Shown: in pieces, positions 22,126 to 57,087 of the stretch
Position numbering within the stretch: position 1 is the stretch's first letter
How the letters are laid out: the number at the start of each line of letters is the position of its first letter
Assembly: GCA_030950285.1 (NCBI GenBank)
Contig: JAUZRR010000033.1
Location: 1 to 64,000, forward strand
Reading direction: 5' to 3'
Origin: Planctomycetota bacterium
GTDB taxonomy: Bacteria; Planctomycetota; Phycisphaerae; Phycisphaerales; UBA1924
DNA: 64,000 nucleotides
Notes under the pieces: model-generated
What the model saw: the letters and a program-made list of their open reading frames with translations, nothing else
Database searches by the model: none
Told to the model about the DNA's origin: nothing
Made by a program: the position numbers and the translations under genes

Positions 22126-24294
22126 TTACGCCTCGACGGTCTCGGCCTTTTTGTCCATCTCGACAGCCTTGCGGCTGAGCTTGATGCGGCCTTGCTCGTC
22201 CACCATGATGACCTTGACCTTGACGATATCGCCGATCTTGACCACCTCATCGACGCTCTTGACAAAGCCGTCGGCGAGTTCGGAGATGTGGCACATGCCG
22301 TCGGTGCCCGGGGCGAGCTCGATGAACGCGCCGAAGTCTTTGACAGAGACGACTTTACCGTCGTAGACGGTCCCGACCTTGATCTCTTCGCAGAGCGCCT
22401 GGACCTCGGCGAGCGCCGCCTCGACCGCCGGGCCGTTGGAGCTGGAGATCATCACGGTACCGTCGTCCTCGACGTCGATGTTGACCTCGTGCTTGTCCTG
22501 GAGGGCGCGGATGACCTTGCCCCCCGGGCCGATGAGCTTGCCGATCTTCTCGACCGAGATTTTGAGGGTGACCATCATCGGGGCATAGGGCGAAATCTTC
22601 GCCCGCGGCTCGGCGATGCACTTCTCCATGGTCTCGATGATCTCGAGCCGCCCTTCACGGGCCTGAGCAAAGATGACCTTGATCTGGTCGAGATTGAGCC
22701 CGCGGGCCTTGAGATCGAGCTGGATGCCGGTGATTCCTTCGCGGGTGCCGGAGACCTTGAAGTCCATGTCGCCGAAGAAGTCCTCTTCGCCGAGGATGTC
22801 GGTGACGAAGACCTCGCTGCCGCCGTTCTCATCGGTGAAGCGTCCGACGGAGATGCCGGCACAGGTCCCGGTGATGGGCACGCCGGCGTCCATGAGCGCG
22901 AGGCACCCGCCGCAGACCGACGCCATCGACGAGGAGCCGTTGCTCTCGGTGATGTCGCTGACCAGGCGGACGGTGTAGGGGAAGTCTTCGGGGTTGGGCA
23001 GGATCGCCATGAGCGACCGCTCGGCGAGGGCACCGTGGCCGACCTCGCGGCGGCCGGGACCCATGATCCGCTTTGCTTCACCCGTGCAGAACGGCGGGAA
23101 GTTGTAGTGGAGGGTGAACTTCTTGGAGTACTCGGGCAGCAGACCGTCGACGATCTGCTCGTCGCGTGCGGTACCGAGCGTGCAGGTCACCAGGCTCTGA
23201 GTCTCGCCGCGCTGGAAGAACGCCGAGCCGTGGGTGCGGTGGAAGACACCGACCTCGGCCTCGATCGCCCGGATTTCCTTGAGCGCGCGCCCGTCGGCGC
23301 GGCGGTGCTTCTCGGCGATCAGCTTTCGGGTGGTCTTTTTCTCAAGCGTGCGGAACGCCTCTTTGGCTTCGCTGCGGAGCTTGACGCTCTTGGCGTACTC
23401 GGCGTAGGTGCCCGACTCGTTGATCGGGAAGTGCTCGTCGAGCAGCTTGGTGCGCAGCTCGTTGACGCGGTTGTGGCGTTCCTGCTTGCCGCTGATCTGA
23501 CGGGCTTCGAGCATGTCCTCGCCACAGACCTCGCGGACCTTGGCCACCACCTCATCACTCGGCAACGCGAGAGAGTTGATGATCTTCTCCTGCCCGACCT
23601 TGCCGACCAGCTCTTCGATCAGGCCGAGGATCTGCTTGATGTACTCGTACCCGAACTCGATCGCGGCGTGGACATCATCATCAGGCACCTCGGCGGCACC
23701 GACCTCGATCATGTTGATCCCGTCGGCGTGCCCGGCGAGGACCAGGTCCAGGTCGGAGAAGTCCATCTGCGACACCGTCGGGTTGATGACAAAGACCGGC
23801 CCGTCGTCGGTGTGGATGCGGCCCACGCGAACGGTCGCGGTCGGGCCGTCAAACGGCGCATTGCTGATCGCCAGCGCCGCCGAGGCAGCCGTCGCCGCGA
23901 GGACATCGGTGTCGTTCTCGGCGTCGTGGCTCATCACCCAGCACTGGATCTGCACCTCGTCGATAAACCCGTCGGGGAAGAGCGGGCGGATCGGGCGGTC
24001 GATCATCCGCATCGTGAGAACTTCCTTCTCGTTGGGCGGCCCCTCACGCTTGCGGAACCCGCCGGGGAACTTGCCGCCCGCGGAGAGTTTCTCGCGGTAA
24101 TCGACTTGCATGGGGAAGAAGTCGAGCCCTTCGCGGGGCTTGTCGCGGACGACGGTCGCGAGCACGGTGCTGTCGCCGTAGGTCGCGATCACCGCGGACG
24201 TCGCCTGTCGAGCGACCTTGCCGGTCTGCAGGGTCAGCGTGCGGCCGCCGATTTCGCGCTCGATGGAGACGTTGCCGAGAGGTTTGGCTGTCAT
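22126..24294 (-). CDS. pnp: Polyribonucleotide nucleotidyltransferase (PNPase)
   Basis: A 3'-5' phosphorolytic exoribonuclease, 722 aa from ATG 24294 ([30 protein letters not shown]). Domains: a first RNase PH domain (about 10-150, with [26 protein letters not shown]), an all-helical linker, a second RNase PH domain ([57 protein letters not shown]), KH ([18 protein letters not shown]), and S1 ([20 protein letters not shown]). The length is normal. It follows rpsO on the same strand, the classical rpsO-pnp arrangement, with a hairpin between. Confidence 0.98.
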
Positions 24295-24487
24295 GATGTG
24301 TTCTGCCTTCTGACTGCGCCGCAGCCGATCCTCAGCCACACGCCGAGCGACCAGTCGCGGCTGACCCACGACCCCGCACAGCCCGAGAGGCAGAAGGCAT
24401 GACGCAGTCCCGAAAGGCTGCCCCGTGCCGACTGCCGCGTCGTGCACCCCGCGAGGGCCGCGGATCCCGTTGTGGATCCAAAACGAA

Positions 24488-24513
24488 CACCGCCGACGTT
24501 TCCGTCGGCGGTG
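24488..24513 (-). promoter_or_regulatory. Hairpin between rpsO and pnp
   Basis: CACCGCCGACG-TTTC-CGTCGGCGGTG, an 11-pair perfect stem, starts ten bases after the rpsO stop. In E. coli this junction holds an attenuating terminator and RNase III processing sites that control pnp; a similar role here is inferred from position only. On the minus strand it is followed by TTCGTTTT, so partial termination is plausible. Confidence 0.6.
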
Positions 24514-24522
24514 CGTGATGCG

Positions 24523-24792
24523 TTACTTGCGCAAACCGAGCTTTGCGATCGTCGCCAGATACGCCGGGCGGTCTTTCCGAGCCAGGTACCGAAGCAACCG
24601 ATTGCGACGGCTGACCATCGCCAGCAGCCCGCGCCGCGAGTGGAAGTCTTTGCGGTGCTCGCGCAGGTGCCCGGACAGCTCGGCGATCCGCCGCGTGAGC
24701 AGCGCGATCTGGACCTGCGGCGAACCGACGTCGCCGTCGTGGGTCGCAAACTCGGAGATGATTTCGGAACGAACTTCAGGAGCCGTCGGCAT
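24523..24792 (-). CDS. rpsO: 30S ribosomal protein S15
   Basis: 89 aa from ATG 24792 ([33 protein letters not shown]). The characteristic [38 protein letters not shown] block and the RRNRLLRYL ending identify uS15, which binds 16S rRNA early in 30S assembly. The length is standard. The ATG 24792 start removes the unrelated 49 codons in the track ORF. Confidence 0.98.
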
Positions 24793-25032
24793 CAGCAATC
24801 CTCTGCCTGGTCGAGGGGGAAACTCTCGATGGGATAGACAAAAATGACAAGAACGAAACGCCCGGCAGCCCCGCGAGAGCGGCTTGGAACCACCCACGGT
24901 TCGGAACCGGGTCGGACGACCAATACTAGCCGCCCCCAAACCCCGATCAATCGCCAGCCGTCACCGGACCAACCCCGAACCGGTCGCATTCGCGCATCCC
25001 CCCCCCCGCTCCCGGCGGATATCGTTCAGCCT

Positions 25033-26304
25033 ATGAGCGCCACCACCAACGGACTTTCGGTCTCAGCACGGGTCGGGTCGATCAAACCCTCGGTCACCGT
25101 TGCCTTTGGTGGCAGGGCCAAGGCGATGAAGGAGGCCGGGATCGACGTCCTGAGCTTTTCCCTCGGCGAGCCCGACTTTGACACCCCCCAGCCGATCAAA
25201 CAGGCCGCGATCGACGCCCTGCTGGCCGGGCAGACCAAGTACATGCCGACCCTCGGCGACGCCCGCACCCGGGCCGCGATCGCTGAGAAGCTCACCCGCG
25301 ACAACCACATCCCCGGCCTGACCGCCGACCACATCGCCATCTCGGCCGGGGGCAAGCACTCGCTGTTTGTCTGCTGCCACTGCCTGCTCGATCCGCCCAA
25401 GCCCGGCGAGCCCGCCCAGGAGGTCCTGCTCCCCGTGCCCTCGTGGGTGAGTTACGCCCCGATCGCCCGGCTCGCCGGGGGGCGGGTCGTCGAGCTGCCC
25501 ACCGGGCCGGAGGTTGACTTCAAGATTTCGCCCGAACAGCTCCGCGCCGCGATCACGCCCCGCTCGCGGCTGCTGATTCTCAACAGCCCCAGCAACCCCT
25601 GCGGCACGATGTACTCGCCCGCCGAGCTGCGTGCCCTGGCGGCGGTGGTTGCCGAGGCGGCCGCGACTGTCGCGCCGGGCCTCATCGTCATCTCCGACGA
25701 GATTTACGAGCGCATTGTCTACGGCGGGATCGAGCACTTCTCGATCGGGTCGGTGCCCGAGCTCGCCGACCGGGTGGTCACGCTCAACGGCATGAGCAAG
25801 GCCTACTCCATGACCGGGTGGCGGATCGGGTACGCGGCGATGCCGGGCGATTTCGGCCGCACGCTCATCAAGGCGTTCGGCACGCTGCAGGGGCAGATGA
25901 CCACCTGCATCACTTCGTTTCTCTACCCTGCGATCCGCACGGCGCTTGCCGAGTGTGACGCGGAGGTCGAGCGGATGCGCCGGGCGTTTGCCTCCAGAGC
26001 CGAGGTGATCTTCCAGCGCCTCAACGCCATCGACGGCATCCACTGCCCCAGGCCCACCGGCGCGTTCTATGTCTTTCCCGATATCTCGAAGTTCTTCGGC
26101 ACCACCTCGGGCAACGGCCGGGCGATCAACTCGGCGCTCGACTTTGCCGAGGCGTTGCTCGAGGAGGCCCGCGTCGCGCTGGTCCCCGGCGAAGACTTCG
26201 GCGGCTGCGGCGAGCGCTGCGTGCGGATCTCGTTTGCGTGCAGCGAGGAGCAGATCAACGTCGGGATGGATCGGCTCGAAGCGTTCTTGGGCAAGCTGCG
26301 GTAG
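25033..26304 (+). CDS. Class I pyridoxal-phosphate aminotransferase (aspartate aminotransferase-like)
   Basis: 423 aa from ATG 25033 (MSATTNGLSVSARVGSIKPSVTVAF). Seen: SFSLGEPDFDTP, SAGGKHSLF (phosphate-binding turn), SPSNPCGTMYSPAEL (Asn contacting PLP), VISDEIYERIVY (Asp for the pyridine nitrogen), and NGMSKAYSMTGWRIGY with Schiff-base lysine K256. The C-terminal Arg block CVRISFACSEEQI binds the substrate carboxylate. It belongs to the prokaryotic aspartate/prephenate aminotransferase (I-gamma/beta) subgroup, but substrate specificity is uncertain. It is divergent from rpsO. Confidence 0.92.
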   Translation: MSATTNGLSVSARVGSIKPSVTVAFGGRAKAMKEAGIDVLSFSLGEPDFDTPQPIKQAAIDALLAGQTKYMPTLGDARTRAAIAEKLTRDNHIPGLTADHIAISAGGKHSLFVCCHCLLDPPKPGEPAQEVLLPVPSWVSYAPIARLAGGRVVELPTGPEVDFKISPEQLRAAITPRSRLLILNSPSNPCGTMYSPAELRALAAVVAEAAATVAPGLIVISDEIYERIVYGGIEHFSIGSVPELADRVVTLNGMSKAYSMTGWRIGYAAMPGDFGRTLIKAFGTLQGQMTTCITSFLYPAIRTALAECDAEVERMRRAFASRAEVIFQRLNAIDGIHCPRPTGAFYVFPDISKFFGTTSGNGRAINSALDFAEALLEEARVALVPGEDFGGCGERCVRISFACSEEQINVGMDRLEAFLGKLR

Positions 26305-37946: not shown

Positions 37947-39722
37947 TCAGTCGAAGAGCATGACCTGCGGCATCACCGCCTGGACGGGCTCGTCGCGGAA
38001 GTTGAGCAGCGCCCGCCCGGCGTTGGAGACCTGCCGCCAGGCGCGATCGCCGAGCAGCTCGCGCACCGCCGACGCGATCGCGAGTTCCGACCGCACGGGC
38101 GAGTGCATAAACCCGCCGAGCATCTCGCCGATGATCTCGTCAAAGCCCTTGGGGCCGGGGTAGTTCATCACGTCGTACCGGGTCATGTCGAGCGAGGCGG
38201 CGAGATCGGTGACGGCGTCGTCGAGTGAGCCGAGCTCGTCGATCATGCCCAAGCCGATCGCTCGATCGCCCGTGAACAGTCGGCCCTCGGCGGTGCTGGA
38301 AATGTCGATCCCGGGGCGTCCGGCTTTGACACGGGACACGAAGAGGTCGTAGGTCTCGGTCATCTTTGCCCGGACGAACGCGCGATCGCTTTCGTTCCAC
38401 GGCGTAACGGTCGAGAACAGCCCCGAACGCGGCCCGCGCGAGCGCGACACGATGTTCACGTGCAGCTTCTCGTAGAGCTCGCCCATCGAGAACTTGCCCC
38501 CCACCACGCCGATCGACCCGACGATGCTCGAAGGGTTGGCGTAGATCTTCTCGCCGCCGACCGCGGTGTAGTACCCGCCGGACGCGGCCATCGACCCGAT
38601 GCTGACCCAGACGGGTTTCTCAGCCGCGACCCGCTGCATGCCTTGCCACATGACTTCGCTGGCGATCGCCGACCCGCCGGGTGAATCGATGCGGACGACG
38701 ACACCCTTGATGAGGTCCTCGGCGAGGATGTCCTCGAGCGCACGGCGGATGGTGCGGCTGCCGACCGACTCGCCGCCGAGCAGGCCGCCCGAGGTCGAAT
38801 CGCCGTCGATGATCGTACCAACGATGTGCAACACCGCGATCGTTTCGCCCTTGGGCGAGTGGTCGGGCGGCGTGGTGAGCATGCGGAGCATGGCGAACGG
38901 GTTGGCCGGATCGAGCGCCGTCGAGGTGCTGGGCTCGACATCCGACCACGCGATCTCGTCACCGTAGACCTCTTCAAGGTGTTCGGTGAGCATCGGGAGA
39001 TCGACCACCGCGTCGATGAGGCCGGACTCGATCGCGTCCTCGCCGCCGGAGAGCCACCCGGCTTCCATCGCGGCGTCGAGCTGGGCGTCGCTGAGCGAGA
39101 GATTGTCTTTGAGCGTCGAGCGCATGCCGTCGTAGATGCTGTCGAGCAGTTGATTGATGTTCTGGTCCCAGGGCTCGCTCGGCCCGCTGTTCATGTACAT
39201 CTCGTTGGCGCCCTTGTAGTCGCCGATCTGCACAAAGTCTGCCTTGATGCCGATCCAGTTGAGGGCGTCTTTGAGGAACATCTCCTGCATGTACAATCCG
39301 CTGAGCGACACCATCCCGCCGGCTTGCAGGATCGCTTCGTCGGCGTACGACCCGAGCATGAGTTCGCCGTTGCCGTAGTTTTCGGCAAAGACGTGGACCC
39401 GCTTCCCGGCGGCGCGAATCTCCGCGAGCGCTGCGCCGATCTCCTGAATCTGGCTCGTCGTGAGCGCAGCATCTTTGAGGCGGATGACCAGCGCGTCGGT
39501 CTGCGAATCCTCCGCGACCTCGTGCAGCGCCGCGACGACATCCGCGAGAGTGCCGAAAGAGCCGGAGGCTTCGAGCCACGCCATCGGGCTTGGTTGCTCG
39601 GCGAGGCTGCCTTCGATCTCCATCATCGCCACGTCGGTCTGGGCGTGTGCGGTGCCGCACGCCATCACCGCCGCGACAACTCCAACCGCCATCCCCGCGA
39701 GGGTCCGTGTTCTGCTCTGCAT
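37947..39722 (-). CDS. sppA: Signal peptide peptidase SppA (67-kDa type)
   Basis: 591 aa from ATG 39722. An N-terminal signal or anchor (MQSRTRTLAGMAVGVVAAVMACGTAHAQ) and two tandem crotonase-like protease domains. The catalytic lysine is in QIGDYKGANEMY (K170, first domain) and the serine in VSIGSMAASGGYYTAVGGEKIYA (second domain), with SSIVGSIGV after it, matching the Ser-Lys dyad split of long SppA. It would cleave leftover signal peptides in the membrane. Its stop lies four bases from the convergent Xer stop. Confidence 0.92.
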   Translation of the reverse strand: MQSRTRTLAGMAVGVVAAVMACGTAHAQTDVAMMEIEGSLAEQPSPMAWLEASGSFGTLADVVAALHEVAEDSQTDALVIRLKDAALTTSQIQEIGAALAEIRAAGKRVHVFAENYGNGELMLGSYADEAILQAGGMVSLSGLYMQEMFLKDALNWIGIKADFVQIGDYKGANEMYMNSGPSEPWDQNINQLLDSIYDGMRSTLKDNLSLSDAQLDAAMEAGWLSGGEDAIESGLIDAVVDLPMLTEHLEEVYGDEIAWSDVEPSTSTALDPANPFAMLRMLTTPPDHSPKGETIAVLHIVGTIIDGDSTSGGLLGGESVGSRTIRRALEDILAEDLIKGVVVRIDSPGGSAIASEVMWQGMQRVAAEKPVWVSIGSMAASGGYYTAVGGEKIYANPSSIVGSIGVVGGKFSMGELYEKLHVNIVSRSRGPRSGLFSTVTPWNESDRAFVRAKMTETYDLFVSRVKAGRPGIDISSTAEGRLFTGDRAIGLGMIDELGSLDDAVTDLAASLDMTRYDVMNYPGPKGFDEIIGEMLGGFMHSPVRSELAIASAVRELLGDRAWRQVSNAGRALLNFRDEPVQAVMPQVMLFD

Positions 39723-39741
39723 CGTGTGCTCCTTGGTCGCA

Positions 39742-40146
39742 TCAGCCGTAGCCGAGGCGTTCGAGGTCTTCCTCGTCGAGCCCGAAGTGATGTCCGATCT
39801 CGTGGAGGACCGTGATTCGTATTTCGTCGGCGAGCGCACGCTCGTCGAGCCAACCGCCCGCGGCGCGGACTGTGCCGCGCCGGAAGAGGTGTATCTGCTC
39901 GGGCAACTCGCCCGAGGCTTCGACGCTGCGTTCGAGCACCGAATGCCCGGAATACAGCCCGCACAGCGTACGCGCCTCGGTCGCCCACTGTTCGGGCGGC
40001 ACGTCGAGCGAGCGGAGCAGGCCCGGGGTGGGCTCATCCATGACGATCAGCGGCACCTCGTCAAGCAGCGCCACCACTCGCGCGGGGAGCTCGGCGAGCA
40101 CCGCTTCGAGAAGAGTGTCAAACCTCGCGCGCTCGGCATCGGTCAT
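39742..40146 (-). CDS. Zincin-type metallopeptidase-like protein
   Basis: 134 aa from ATG 40146. The C-terminal half carries ADEIRITVLHEIGHHFGLDEEDLERLGYG, an HExxH-xx-H-type zinc site as in the small bacterial zincin family (DUF1025-like, for example TTHA0227-type). The N-terminal half is helical (TLLEAVLAELPARVVALLDEVPLIVMDEP). Its ATG overlaps the stop of the upstream zinc-ribbon membrane protein (ATGA), so the two are translationally coupled. It lies 19 bp ahead of sppA. Confidence 0.85.
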   Translation of the reverse strand: MTDAERARFDTLLEAVLAELPARVVALLDEVPLIVMDEPTPGLLRSLDVPPEQWATEARTLCGLYSGHSVLERSVEASGELPEQIHLFRRGTVRAAGGWLDERALADEIRITVLHEIGHHFGLDEEDLERLGYG

Positions 40147-41144
40147 GGGCCGACCCCGTCTGCGCCCGTGTCGATCACATCGCCGATTGCTAACGGGCGA
40201 TAGAGCACCGCCGGGAGCAGCCGAATCGTGTCCACCACCGTGCCGAGCACCCCGAGCGTCAGCAGCACCACGCCCAGGCCGACCAGCACCGCCGAGAGCA
40301 ACCCCAGGGGGGCCGCCCAATCCCCCATCAGCCCGACCGCCAGCCCGAGCGCGTCGCCCGTCGCGGCGATGAGCATCGCCGCGATCGTTGCGGCGATGGT
40401 CTGGCGATCCACACGCTTTGAGCGCAGCACGAGCGAACGCAACGCGAGCAACCTCAGGTTTGGTCGCAAGAGCCACGCCCCAAGCGCAAGTGTGAGCCAG
40501 AGGCAGAGACGCTCGACCCGCCACCGAGAGACCGCCGCCTCTTCAACCCACACCGCCAGAAGCGACGAGCCCCACCCCGGAGAGGCGTACAGCCCCACGT
40601 CGGCGTAGAGCTTGACCGAGATCGGGTAGAGGAGCGCGGCGAAGACCGAGGCCGCGATCCGCCGACGCGAGATCCCGCCGTGCGGCCGCACAATCGCCAA
40701 CGCCCCGAGACCCGACGCCCCCAGCGCACCTGCGCCGACCAGCACCAGCGTCACCCGCGCCCCTGCGTCGAGAAAGCCTCCGATGGTGATCCCGGTCCAG
40801 ACCACAAGCCCGATCGCGACTGCCAGCAACGACCCGAGCGACCAGAGCAGCACCCCCGCCGCCACGAGCTTCGGACGCTTGACCGGCTGCAACTCGATCG
40901 CCTGCGGGTCAACCGTCCGCAGCAGCGTCGCCCGAACCGGGAGCCCGCACTCGGGGCAGTTGCCTTTGATACTCAGCCCCTGAAGCTCGTACCGGCATGA
41001 GACGCATCGCAGCGGGCCGGTGAGTTCGTGCGCGATGGGCAGCTCAGAGCCCGAGCCCCAATCATCCCCCGCACCCACCGGCGCGGGGACAGTTCCTCCC
41101 GCGGGTGTGGCTGGGGGTTCGGCTTGGTCTCTGTGCTCCGACAC
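40143..41144 (-). CDS. Membrane protein with N-terminal zinc ribbon
   Basis: 333 aa. Residues 47-70 hold a zinc ribbon, CVSCRYELQGLSIKGNCPECGLPV (two CxxC pairs), a frequent feature of planctomycete membrane proteins. This is followed by about seven hydrophobic segments (KLVAAGVLLWSLGSLLAVAIGLVVW; VTLVLVGAGALGASGLGALAI; TIAATIAAMLIAATGDALGLAVGLM). Function unknown. First gene of a likely three-gene unit with the zincin gene and sppA. Confidence 0.7.
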   Translation of the reverse strand: MSEHRDQAEPPATPAGGTVPAPVGAGDDWGSGSELPIAHELTGPLRCVSCRYELQGLSIKGNCPECGLPVRATLLRTVDPQAIELQPVKRPKLVAAGVLLWSLGSLLAVAIGLVVWTGITIGGFLDAGARVTLVLVGAGALGASGLGALAIVRPHGGISRRRIAASVFAALLYPISVKLYADVGLYASPGWGSSLLAVWVEEAAVSRWRVERLCLWLTLALGAWLLRPNLRLLALRSLVLRSKRVDRQTIAATIAAMLIAATGDALGLAVGLMGDWAAPLGLLSAVLVGLGVVLLTLGVLGTVVDTIRLLPAVLYRPLAIGDVIDTGADGVGP

Positions 41145-52178: not shown

Positions 52179-53450
52179 CTACAACGGCCGCCTCGGGCTC
52201 AGCGCCGCGTTGGCCAGCAGCAGCCCGGTCACCAGCCCGACCGCGACCAGCACCATCGCAAACGCCGCTTCCACGCCGCCGATGGTGTCGTTGTGGACGA
52301 ACGAATCGACGCTGCGAAACCCGAGTGATCCGGGCACGAGCAGCATGATGCCCGGGACCGACAGCACCGCCGAGGGGCGGTCGGCGATCCGCGCCCAGCC
52401 GTTGGCGGCGAGCCCGACCACAAACGCACCGAGGCACGCCCCGATCTCCGGGCCAAGCCACTCTGCGCCGAGGCGGGCGCCAGCAAACCCCAACGCGCCC
52501 GCGGGCAAGATCACCGGCAAGTCGCGCGGCTTGGCCCGGAACAGCACCCCGAGCGCCAGCGGCGCCACGAGCAGCGCCCCGGCCAACGCGACACCCGGCA
52601 GCGGCACCACCGGGTCGCTCGCCACGCCGTAGAGCCCGATCGCCGCCCGCTGCCCGATCGCCACCCCAAAGCCCAACGCCACGAAGATGGTGAGCGCGCC
52701 CATGAGCCGCGCGGTCCCGGCCGCCAGGTGCCGGGTTGCGAGTTCGGCGACCGCGGTGGTCAGCGTCAGCCCCGGCACCAGCGCGATCACCGCGGCCAGC
52801 GCGACCAGCGACGCCGACATCGGCGTCATCGCGGTCGCCAGCGCCCCAGCCAGGAACGCCGCGACGAACCCCACCACGAAGTCCATCAGCCGCGCCAGGT
52901 GCCGGTGCCGCGCGACAGCCTGCAGCACAACCCCCACGACAAACCCGACCAGCGCCGCCCCGACCACGTCGCGCCACCCGCCGCCGAAGAAGACCCCCGC
53001 GGTCGCCGACGCCGCTGCCTGGGCCATCACCATCGCCAGCGGGCCGTACCGGGAAGGCTCGACAACAACCGCGTCGAGCCGGGCCAGCCCCTCGGCAGCC
53101 GTCGCCTTGTCGTCCAGCACGTCCCGCAGCACCGCGTCGATCTGCGATTGCTTTTCGAGGTTGACCTCACCGGATTCGAGCCGCAGCAGGTGGGTGCGTT
53201 GCTCGCCGTCGGACCCGATCGCGGCAAAGACCGCGGTCGGGGTGGCAAAGAACTGGGCTTCCATGCCGAGGTGTTTGGCGCAGCTCATCGCGGCGTCTTC
53301 GAGCCGGTGGGCGGGGATGCCGAACGCCGCCATGAGCAACGCCAGCCGCAGCACGAACCGCTCGGAGACCGCCGCGTCCGGCGTGGGGGGCGTGGGGGGC
53401 GTGGGGGGCGGTGCGTGGGGTGGCCGAGATTGCGGGGCTGGTGTGTGCAT
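52179..53450 (-). CDS. Threonine/serine exporter family protein (ThrE-type)
   Basis: 423 aa from ATG 53450. The N-terminal ThrE domain (about 28-240) has FVLRLALLMAAFGIPAHRLEDAAMSCAKHLG, VFAAIGSDGEQRTHLLRLESGEVNLEKQSQIDAVLRDVLD and five hydrophobic helices with GLTLTTAVAELATRHLAAGTARLMGAL. A second half with about five helices (PVILPAGALGFAGARLGAEWLGPEIGACLGAFVVG; SVPGIMLLVPGSLGFRSV) matches the ThrE_2 (DUF3815) part, so both halves are fused as in actinobacterial ThrE. The N-terminus contains TPPTPPTP from a GGGGGGCGT microsatellite (53381-53411). Confidence 0.88.
   Translation of the reverse strand: MHTPAPQSRPPHAPPPTPPTPPTPDAAVSERFVLRLALLMAAFGIPAHRLEDAAMSCAKHLGMEAQFFATPTAVFAAIGSDGEQRTHLLRLESGEVNLEKQSQIDAVLRDVLDDKATAAEGLARLDAVVVEPSRYGPLAMVMAQAAASATAGVFFGGGWRDVVGAALVGFVVGVVLQAVARHRHLARLMDFVVGFVAAFLAGALATAMTPMSASLVALAAVIALVPGLTLTTAVAELATRHLAAGTARLMGALTIFVALGFGVAIGQRAAIGLYGVASDPVVPLPGVALAGALLVAPLALGVLFRAKPRDLPVILPAGALGFAGARLGAEWLGPEIGACLGAFVVGLAANGWARIADRPSAVLSVPGIMLLVPGSLGFRSVDSFVHNDTIGGVEAAFAMVLVAVGLVTGLLLANAALSPRRPL
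53381..53411. repeat. GGGGGGCGT microsatellite in the thrE-like N-terminus
   Basis: Three to four tandem copies of a nine-base unit encode PPTPPTPPTP ahead of the conserved ThrE domain. In-frame copy number changes would only lengthen a disordered tail. Confidence 0.7.
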
Positions 53451-53829
53451 CACGAGCCCTGATGCTAGAGCACCCGCATGGCAGGTATCGCGCTCGGGTG
53501 GGTTGGAAGTTGGGTGCCACTGGGCGCGAGCCCAATGGCGCCCTGCCTGCCCCGCGAGGTGTGTTCAGGATGCCGCCCGCACCAAAACAACCAGCAGAAA
53601 CGCGACCACGCCGAGCAGGACGAAACCACCGACGAAGAAACCGAGGGCCGCCGCACCCAACCGGCCACTGGGACTCTTTGTACGCGGCTGCTTGTCCCCG
53701 CGCCGAGGATCAGATCATGCGTGCCTGGCATCACGGGCAATCTCCCTCCCGCGTGCTGCGATGTAGCCGGATCGTCTGAAATCAGGCCCCCGATTGCACT
53801 GCATGCAGACACCCGCGGCGCGCCGCCCG
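53451..53829. other. Gap between thrE and prfB with a palindrome and a possible membrane mini-ORF
   Basis: 379 bases. 53512-53543 is a CCACTGGGC-GCGA-GCCCAATGG hairpin. On the minus strand, 53660 down to 53565 encodes, from a TTG, GAAALGFFVGGFVLL...VLVRAAS, a convincing single membrane helix, but there is no ATG or ribosome site and the frame is open for only ~49 codons. I leave it unassigned. Confidence 0.4.
53512..53543. repeat. Palindrome with GCGA loop
   Basis: GTGCCACTGGGC-GCGA-GCCCAATGGCGCC pairs about 11 bases with one mismatch. It is related in its CACTGGGC arm to the element at 43623-43650. Confidence 0.7.
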
Positions 53830-54937
53830 TCACGCCTTGACTGACCGCCGCCGCTGCAACTCGGCACTCACGAACGGCTCGATGTGCCCTTGCAACACCT
53901 TCTCGTAGTTCGATTCCTCGTGCCCGGTGCGGTGGTCTTTCACCCGGTTGTCGTAAAAGACGTAGCTGCGGATCTGCGTCCCCCAGCCGCGCCCGACGTC
54001 GCCGCCCTTGGCTTCCATCAGCTCGGCCGCCCGCTTGTCCTCTTCCAACTGTTCGAGCTTGGCTTGCAGGAGCGTCATTGCCTGGCGTTTGTTCTGGGAC
54101 TGTTCGCGGTGGGTGCTGGCGACCACCATAAACCCCGTCGGCTTGTGCACAATGCGGCACGCCGACGCGACCTTGTTGACGTTCTGCCCGCCCGGCCCAG
54201 ACGACCGCGCAAAGAACGTGAAATCAAGCTCGGTCTCGGGGATCTCGAGCTTTGATTCTTCAAACTCGGGCGTCACATCAACCGTCGCAAAGCTCGTCTG
54301 CCGCTTGCCCTGCGCATTGAACGGCGACACCCGCGCCAGCCGGTGCGTCCCGTGCTCGCACGCCAGGTTCCCGTACGCATACGGCCCCTTGATATGCAGC
54401 GTCACGTGGTCCACCCCGACCTCGGTGCCGTAGGTCTTGGACAGCTCCTCGACCTTGAACCGCATCCGCTCGCAGTAATAGAGGTACATGCGGAAGAGCA
54501 TCTCGGCCCAGTCGTTGGCCTCGGTCCCGCCGTCCCCGGCCGAGATGGTCACGAAGCAGTTGCGGTGGTCGTGCTTGCCCGAGAGCAAAGACTGCAACTC
54601 GACCCGCTCCATCAGGCCGCGGAGCGAGAACAGCGCCTCGTCGGCCTCGACCAGGAGGTCCTTGTCGCCCGACTCCTTCGCCATCTCGTAGGCGACCTGC
54701 GCATCGTCAAACTGCTCGATCACCGCCTTGAGCGGCTCGATCTGGGCCTTGGTCAGCTTGAGCTTTGCGACGGTCTCCTGCGCCTTGTCGGGGTTGTCCC
54801 AGAAGTCCATCGCCGACATCTGCTCTTCGAGATCGGCGAGGGTCGAGAGTTTGGTGTCGTAGTTAAAGAGAGTCGCGGATCGTGACAATCCGCGCCTCAA
54901 GATCGTCGATCACCGGCTGGTGTGCGTCGAAATGCAT
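53830..54937 (-). CDS. prfB: Peptide chain release factor 2, expressed through a +1 programmed frameshift at a UAA codon
   Basis: Terminates translation at UAA and UGA. Frame 0 starts at ATG 54937 (MHFDAHQPVIDDLEARIVTIRDSL) and stops at TAA 54865-54863. The rest of RF2 is in the +1 frame: GACTCTCTTTAACTACGAC gives DSL then NYDTKLSTLADLEEQ. This corresponds to RF2 of E. coli, where CUU UGA C gives L-D at the same place; here CUU UAA C gives L-N. Downstream features are intact: SPF anticodon-like tripeptide (RVSPFNAQGKRQTSF) and GGQ (SSGPGGQNVNKVASACRI). The total is about 368 aa after the shift. I see no strong Shine-Dalgarno-like AGGGGG before the slip site. Coordinates span both frames. Confidence 0.95.
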
Positions 54938-56332: not shown

Positions 56333-56418
56333 ACCCCAACCCCCCACCCCCCCACCCCCCACCCCGCGTGCCCGACGCACCACCACACCACGAGACCGGG
56401 CAGAAAGAGCAGCAGCAC

Positions 56419-57087
56419 GTGAGCGGCACCCCCGGCACCCCCGCCATCCCACTCACCACGCTCCCTGCATCGCTCCCCAGCCACGGGTCCGCGGCCGACG
56501 ACACGGCCGCGTTGACCCGTGCTGCGGCGCGCGGCGATGCCGCCTCGTTCGCCACGATCTACGAACGCTGGTTCGGCCGCGCGCTCACCGCCGCCCACCG
56601 ACTCACCGGCCGCGACGAGGCGTTCTGCCTCGACGTCGTGCAGGACGCGATGCTCCGCGCCGCCCGCCGCATCCCCCCGCTGCCCAGCGAGGCAGCACTG
56701 GGCGCGTGGCTCTGCCGGGTTGTCCACCGCGCCGCCCTCGACCGGCTCCGTGCCGAGCGCCGCCGCGCCGCCCGCGAACGGGCCACAGCACCACACTCAC
56801 GCGCCCCAGCCCACGCCCCAACCCACGCCCCGGACGCCACGCCATCTGACTCCCTCGACGACGAGATCGCCTGGCTGCGAGCGCGGTTGCGAGAGTTGCC
56901 ACCCGACGAGAGCCGCCTGCTCGGCGCCCGCTTCGCCCACGGCCACACACTCGCGCAGGTCGGTGCGGCGCTGGGCATCACCGGCGACGCCGCCCACGGG
57001 CGTCTCCGCCGGGTGCTCAAACGGCTCGCCCGCCAAAGCCCGACCGACCCCCGCCCGCCCGCAGACCGACAGGACCATCAGCCATGA
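56419..57087 (+). CDS. ECF-type RNA polymerase sigma factor
   Basis: 222 aa from GTG 56419 (GTG 56368 would add 17 low-complexity residues). Sigma2: DAASFATIYERWFGRALTAAHRLTGRDEAFCLDVVQDAMLRAARRIPPLPSEAALGAWLCRVVHRAALDRLRAERRR. An Ala/Pro/His-rich linker (THAPDATPSD) leads to sigma4: LRELPPDESRLLGARFAHGHTLAQVGAALGITGDAAHGRLRRVLKRL. It directs RNA polymerase to a specific promoter set. Its stop overlaps the next start (ATGA), so it is coupled to a putative anti-sigma gene. Confidence 0.88.
   Translation: MSGTPGTPAIPLTTLPASLPSHGSAADDTAALTRAAARGDAASFATIYERWFGRALTAAHRLTGRDEAFCLDVVQDAMLRAARRIPPLPSEAALGAWLCRVVHRAALDRLRAERRRAARERATAPHSRAPAHAPTHAPDATPSDSLDDEIAWLRARLRELPPDESRLLGARFAHGHTLAQVGAALGITGDAAHGRLRRVLKRLARQSPTDPRPPADRQDHQP

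Follow-up and report, generated by a model that had tools for sequence, protein, structure and literature searches.

The textbook example of +1 recoding is the synthesis of release factor 2 (RF2) by frameshifting in prfB, and the Shine-Dalgarno-like (SD-like) element at the slip site of this gene is regarded as mechanistically critical. In E. coli and most bacteria the prfB site reads AGGGGG UAU CUU UGA C. The SD at this site has been called almost universal, and among 8,164 frameshift-bearing genomes the stop codon is UGA in 98.6% and UAA in 1.4%, with UAA occurring here and there and in no case broadly fixed within clades (Prince et al. 2025, PMC12421855). FSDB (PMC3500957) also lists CUU UAA C, and UAA at the RF2 site is already known as a rarity, hence not new. 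On 70S ribosomes in vitro, an engineered hairpin upstream of CUUUGA reached about 60% of the +1 stimulation exerted by the SD, an effect that depends on the stability of the hairpin and is seen only without RF2 (Huang et al. 2018, PMC6321510). Our search of the literature on prfB frameshifting in Phycisphaera and planctomycetes, and on natural hairpins upstream of RF2 sites, returned nothing on point; older papers may nonetheless mention such a hairpin.

The prfB gene described here was read in a stretch of 64,000 nucleotides (the window) from a member of the order Phycisphaerales, class Phycisphaerae, phylum Planctomycetota. Its frameshift site has in common with the E. coli-type site the gene, the position, the CUU codon, the C after the stop and a tRNA-Leu(GAG); its codon -1, UCU, is a known favourable spacer, and relatives of the same order also use UGA. 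In contrast to the E. coli-type site, an SD-like element is lacking, a covarying hairpin occupies overlapping positions, and the stop is UAA, both here and in most members of the family. In reading CUU UAA C the site resembles the UAA prfB sites of PMC12421855 and FSDB (PMC3500957), but it differs from those of PMC12421855 in that UAA dominates much of the order and the SD is absent. Like the constructs of PMC6321510, the hairpin stands just 5' of the slip site; unlike them, it is a natural, conserved and covarying element of prfB itself and not an artificial stem in a reporter, and it is shorter (7 pairs plus 3, against an engineered stem of 12 bp). The real novelty lies in the hairpin, conserved and covarying, that accompanies the loss of the SD.

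The prfB gene and its slip site

An earlier note on this DNA had proposed that the RF2 gene is split between frames at the classical position, giving no strand. The window, read directly, carries this feature on the minus strand. An AGGAGG for prfB initiation (54950-54945), complementary to the canonical anti-SD in the 16S rRNA of seven relatives, precedes the zero-frame part (54863..54937), which consists of an ATG start (54937-54935), 24 codons in all (MHFDAHQPVIDDLEARIVTIRDSL) and an in-frame TAA as codon 25 (54865-54863). The slip site (54862..54868) is made up of CUU, expected in the P site, the in-frame UAA and a C, so that CUU is followed by U and the stop by C (CUUUAAC), the stop being one that RF2 can read. 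The +1 frame, which begins with AAC (the N of NYD) at 54864, stays open as far as its stop at 53830 (53830..54864), and both the split and the context CUU UAA C are thus as the note had described them.

The joined product of 368 aa scores 404 bits against the NCBIfam prfB model TIGR00020, above the curated cut-off of 370, and both the SPF and the GGQ motifs are found in the translated +1 frame. Since the +1 part alone, itself above the cut-off, scores 394 bits, 10 bits less than the joined protein, the upstream piece of 24 residues is genuine RF2 sequence. The genome of the window (G000) also encodes a tRNA-Leu with anticodon GAG (locus L399).

The homologous site was read in 60 genomes and in 15 further genomes of the order, with 74 usable order genomes. 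CTTTRAC stands at the identical place in 67 of these 74, and therefore in every frameshift-bearing member, and the frame is uninterrupted in the other 7. In the rest of the class a CTTTRA site is present in 68/68 sampled genomes, and in other Planctomycetota in 47/59.

The region upstream of the slip site

Nothing within -13..-2 of the slip site of the window pairs well with the anti-SD, and no SD-like element is found 3 nt before CUU, in agreement with the earlier note; the median duplex energy in the order is +0.2 kcal/mol. The mean anti-SD pairing energy is -0.37 kcal/mol in the order, -3.23 in the rest of the class and -5.73 in other classes of Planctomycetota, in which the SD-like element is mostly retained and the hairpin absent. 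In most order members CUU is preceded by AUCCGCGACUCU. An altered anti-SD able to pair with GCGACUCU was considered and ruled out, given that the 16S tails of seven relatives are canonical, with CCUCC present and ending in GGATCACCTCCTTT; therefore, an SD could have functioned in these organisms. No 16S match was found in the genome of the window itself. With the SD absent, the site appears to work like the prfB frameshift family but with a different stimulator.

The candidate for this role is a hairpin whose core (54874..54894) is formed by the arms CGCGGAU (54894-54888) and AUCCGCG (54880-54874), separated by seven bases, and which is extended (54870..54898), beyond a G.A mismatch, by the pairing of GAG (54898-54896) with CUC (54872-54870). 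The 3' arm of the core spans -12..-6 relative to CUU and the extended hairpin ends just 5' of this codon, so that a stable stem directly precedes the E-site region of this codon, as in the engineered stimulator. With the outer pairs the predicted energy is -17.5 kcal/mol, versus -7.7 kcal/mol for shuffled sequences (z -4.29). The outer GAG/CUC pairs occur in most of the order but have not been preserved elsewhere in the class. In order and class alike the loop is fixed and the distance between hairpin and CUU is constant, both alignments (A1 and A2) being gapless. No known RNA family reached its gathering score within the window.

All seven core pairs are kept in 64/66 order members, 52/68 members of the rest of the class and 1/47 other Planctomycetota, with means of 6.97, 6.60 and 2.55 pairs, respectively. 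Nevertheless, the peptide [AS]RI..IRD dictates five of the seven pairs irrespective of codons (four through RI..IR and a fifth through A/S and D), and the test therefore lies in the two pairs that join third codon positions. The silent pair -25/-7 is kept in 132/134 sequences, compared to a mean of 67.6 and a maximum of 85 in shuffles, and is found as G-C (71), C-G (50), G-U (6), U-A (3), A-U (1) and U-G (1). Likewise, the silent pair -22/-10 is kept in 127/134 (shuffled mean 113.6, maximum 120), and in the reduced class alignment 39 double-changed cells were counted, versus 14.4 after shuffling and no more than 12 when the partners were slid. Because the shuffle controls ignore relatedness, recurrences were also counted by family: compensatory types at -25/-7 recur in families f1, f6, f8, f11, f13 and f18, and -22/-10 is C-G in f1, f8, f12 and f22 and A-U in f9, f13, f18 and f23. 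In four loci (L032, L094, L107 and L133) a replacement of I by M or L supplies the G needed opposite CGC. Mean folding energies of the natural sequences and of their synonymous recodings are, respectively, -11.1 and -5.8 kcal/mol in the order, -11.9 and -6.4 in the class, and -7.8 and -6.6 outside it, where the difference is small. For a single order sequence about 8% of synonymous recodings pair equally well, and with so few silent pairs the case rests on recurrence across many genomes. Judged by these comparative data, the hairpin is conserved and covarying as an RNA in both order and class. The earlier note, whose reading of the split, the UAA, the missing SD and the possible RF2 feedback stands, had overlooked this element.

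A covariance model of the hairpin matches 349 of 397 class genomes, as well as 23 sampled genomes outside the class, mostly at a weaker score. Among the non-class examples fetched, a full stem, with GGGA, is present in family f73 and partial stems only in several others. One non-class family, f103 (L409 and L410, in genomes G548 and G446), combines an SD-less prfB site with the stem GUCGCGGA/UCCGCGAC, and the hairpin is accordingly not an exclusive feature of the class. Some class members have a GGGA, which constitutes a weak SD, inside the stem, so that hairpin and SD are inseparable as stimulators there. A scan of genome_contigs with the exact hairpin pattern returned at least 118 stretches; among the matches listed, 78/80 directly precede prfB in the correct frame, and nearly all are labelled Planctomycetota, many of them Phycisphaerales. 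Where prfB is uninterrupted, in seven genomes of the order, only 2-5 of the 7 core pairs are left, and in two of these genomes (L060 and L077) the IRDSL peptide is still present despite the lost pairs. Within the order, members that lost the frameshift have also lost the hairpin.

As a separate observation, the hairpin loop contains a stop codon of the RF2 (+1) frame, either TGA or TAA, in 56/66 order members, 10/68 other class members and 1/47 genomes outside the class. This stop, located at -17..-15 before CUU in the order loci (L004-L078) and absent from the window (54885-54883), shuts the RF2 frame shortly upstream of the slip site. The loops of order relatives (-19..-13 before CUU) often read YUURAC, resembling the slip site CUUURAC, possibly by chance.

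Proposed mechanism and alternative explanations

We consider it probable, at about 0.78, that RF2 regulates its own synthesis at this locus in the ordinary way, through +1 frameshifting, with the hairpin as a replacement for the SD-like stimulator. Both the step from hairpin to frameshift stimulation and the regulatory response to release factors are what we infer; since an engineered hairpin stimulates frameshifting at CUUUGA (PMC6321510), the natural one is best explained as a stimulator. The ribosome would read the 24 codons, melting the hairpin in passing; once CUU occupies the P site and UAA the A site, the hairpin may re-form behind it, in the mRNA exit channel. The re-formed 3' arm of the core, at -12..-6, would overlap the position of the SD-anti-SD duplex in E. 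coli prfB (-9..-4) and could strain the contacts in the E and P sites; with release factors in short supply, tRNA-Leu(GAG) would then slip from CUU to UUU. Slippage would yield full-length RF2, and plentiful RF2 would lead to termination at UAA and release of a peptide of 24 residues; the feedback by RF2 that the earlier note had regarded as still possible with UAA is compatible with this scheme. Whether the whole class swapped a stimulator that pairs with rRNA for an intramolecular, re-forming hairpin, with the order of the window wholly SD-less and UAA letting RF1 feed in, is a broader proposal to which we would give even odds.

If the main reading is true, this would be a natural instance of a stimulator that has until now been known from engineered constructs alone, and natural evidence that the ribosome responds to any duplex at the mRNA exit and not to rRNA pairing as such. 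The lineage supplies many natural variants, with different stem types, UAA or UGA, and with or without a weak SD. Motif surveys that expect an SD and UGA may miss or misannotate such prfB genes.

Several other explanations were weighed. The hairpin might serve a different purpose in the RNA, for instance as a transcription attenuator or as a binding site for a protein, the frameshift proceeding with no stimulator, and a terminator scan does flag the hairpin with its CUCUUU tail. However, in many class members the hairpin is followed by ACUGGCUUUGAC, with no U run (L132, L139, L140 and L143), and an intrinsic terminator was rejected, as it is not kept as such in relatives; together with the invariant distance to CUU and the disappearance of the hairpin along with the frameshift, this renders another function improbable. 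We find it very hard to sustain that the inverted repeat simply reflects the conserved peptide ARI..IRD and has no role as RNA: although this peptide accounts for most of the core pairs, it explains neither the covariation of the silent -25/-7 pair nor the M or L residues introduced where pairing with CGC demands them, the frameshift-free relatives retain IRDSL and not the pairs, and outside the class E, R, T or D mostly takes the place of A/S. In principle, ribosomes could start or restart within the +1 frame and make RF2 with no frameshifting, for instance from a TTG at 54900 in the window, but this codon has no preceding SD, the upstream peptide belongs to the RF2 family model, and in 53/66 order members no ATG, GTG or TTG separates the site from the preceding stop of the +1 frame. 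With start codons lacking in most relatives, internal initiation was rejected as highly implausible. Even less credible is a pseudogene or a sequencing error, the latter named by the earlier note as a possible refutation. The assembly of the window is fragmented (62 contigs), yet the identical site is found in independent genomes of the genus, the family and, in 67/74 cases, the order, and RF2 is intact apart from the split; the relatives with the same site refute this explanation.

UAA and UGA at the slip site

The remaining proposal concerns the stop codon, and adds to the hairpin reading without being an alternative to it: UAA might have been selected as a dual sensor, through which RF2 synthesis would track the joint pool of RF1 and RF2. 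RF1 could also terminate at a UAA in this position, and an RF1 with a PAT motif is encoded in the genome of the window, making a second control input via RF1 possible. UAA is found at the prfB site of two independent genomes of the same genus (L005 and L006) and in most of the family, and is therefore neither chance nor a base-call error. Among the 67 frameshift-bearing order genomes it is the stop in 45, in comparison with TAA in 3 of the sites elsewhere in the class and in none of those from other Planctomycetota. Accordingly, the order is an exception to the scattered pattern described in PMC12421855. General stop usage does not account for the presence of UAA at prfB, given that UAA is the rarest stop in the genome of the window (UGA 60.5%, UAG 23.3%, UAA 16.2%), as estimated from 253 genes sampled with a simple ORF picker in 20 stretches and the window. 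Against selection for a dual sensor, UGA accompanies the same hairpin in 22/67 order genomes, and on a maximum-likelihood tree of 59 order RF2 proteins, 55 of them from genes with the frameshift, at least 11 switches between TAA and TGA are needed among these 55, as near-neutral alternatives would show. Such repeated swaps, taken from the gene sequences, rather suggest that the two stops are nearly equivalent and interchangeable at the prfB site in this order, and we regard selection for a dual sensor as a rather doubtful, tentative addition to the hairpin-stimulated frameshift.

Some minor observations were also made. In genome G374, contig C180 carries two equal-scoring prfB copies (24239-25228 and 39451-40440), inverted and about 15 kb apart, which may represent a duplication or an assembly artefact. 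Downstream of prfB in the window, a hydrophobic ORF of 424 aa (52179-53453, minus strand) resembles, by eye only, a ThrE-type threonine/serine exporter. On the plus strand, an ORF of 239 aa (56368-57087), likewise judged only by eye, resembles an RNA polymerase sigma-70 family (ECF) factor, and the next ORF starts at 57084, overlapping it by 4 bases.
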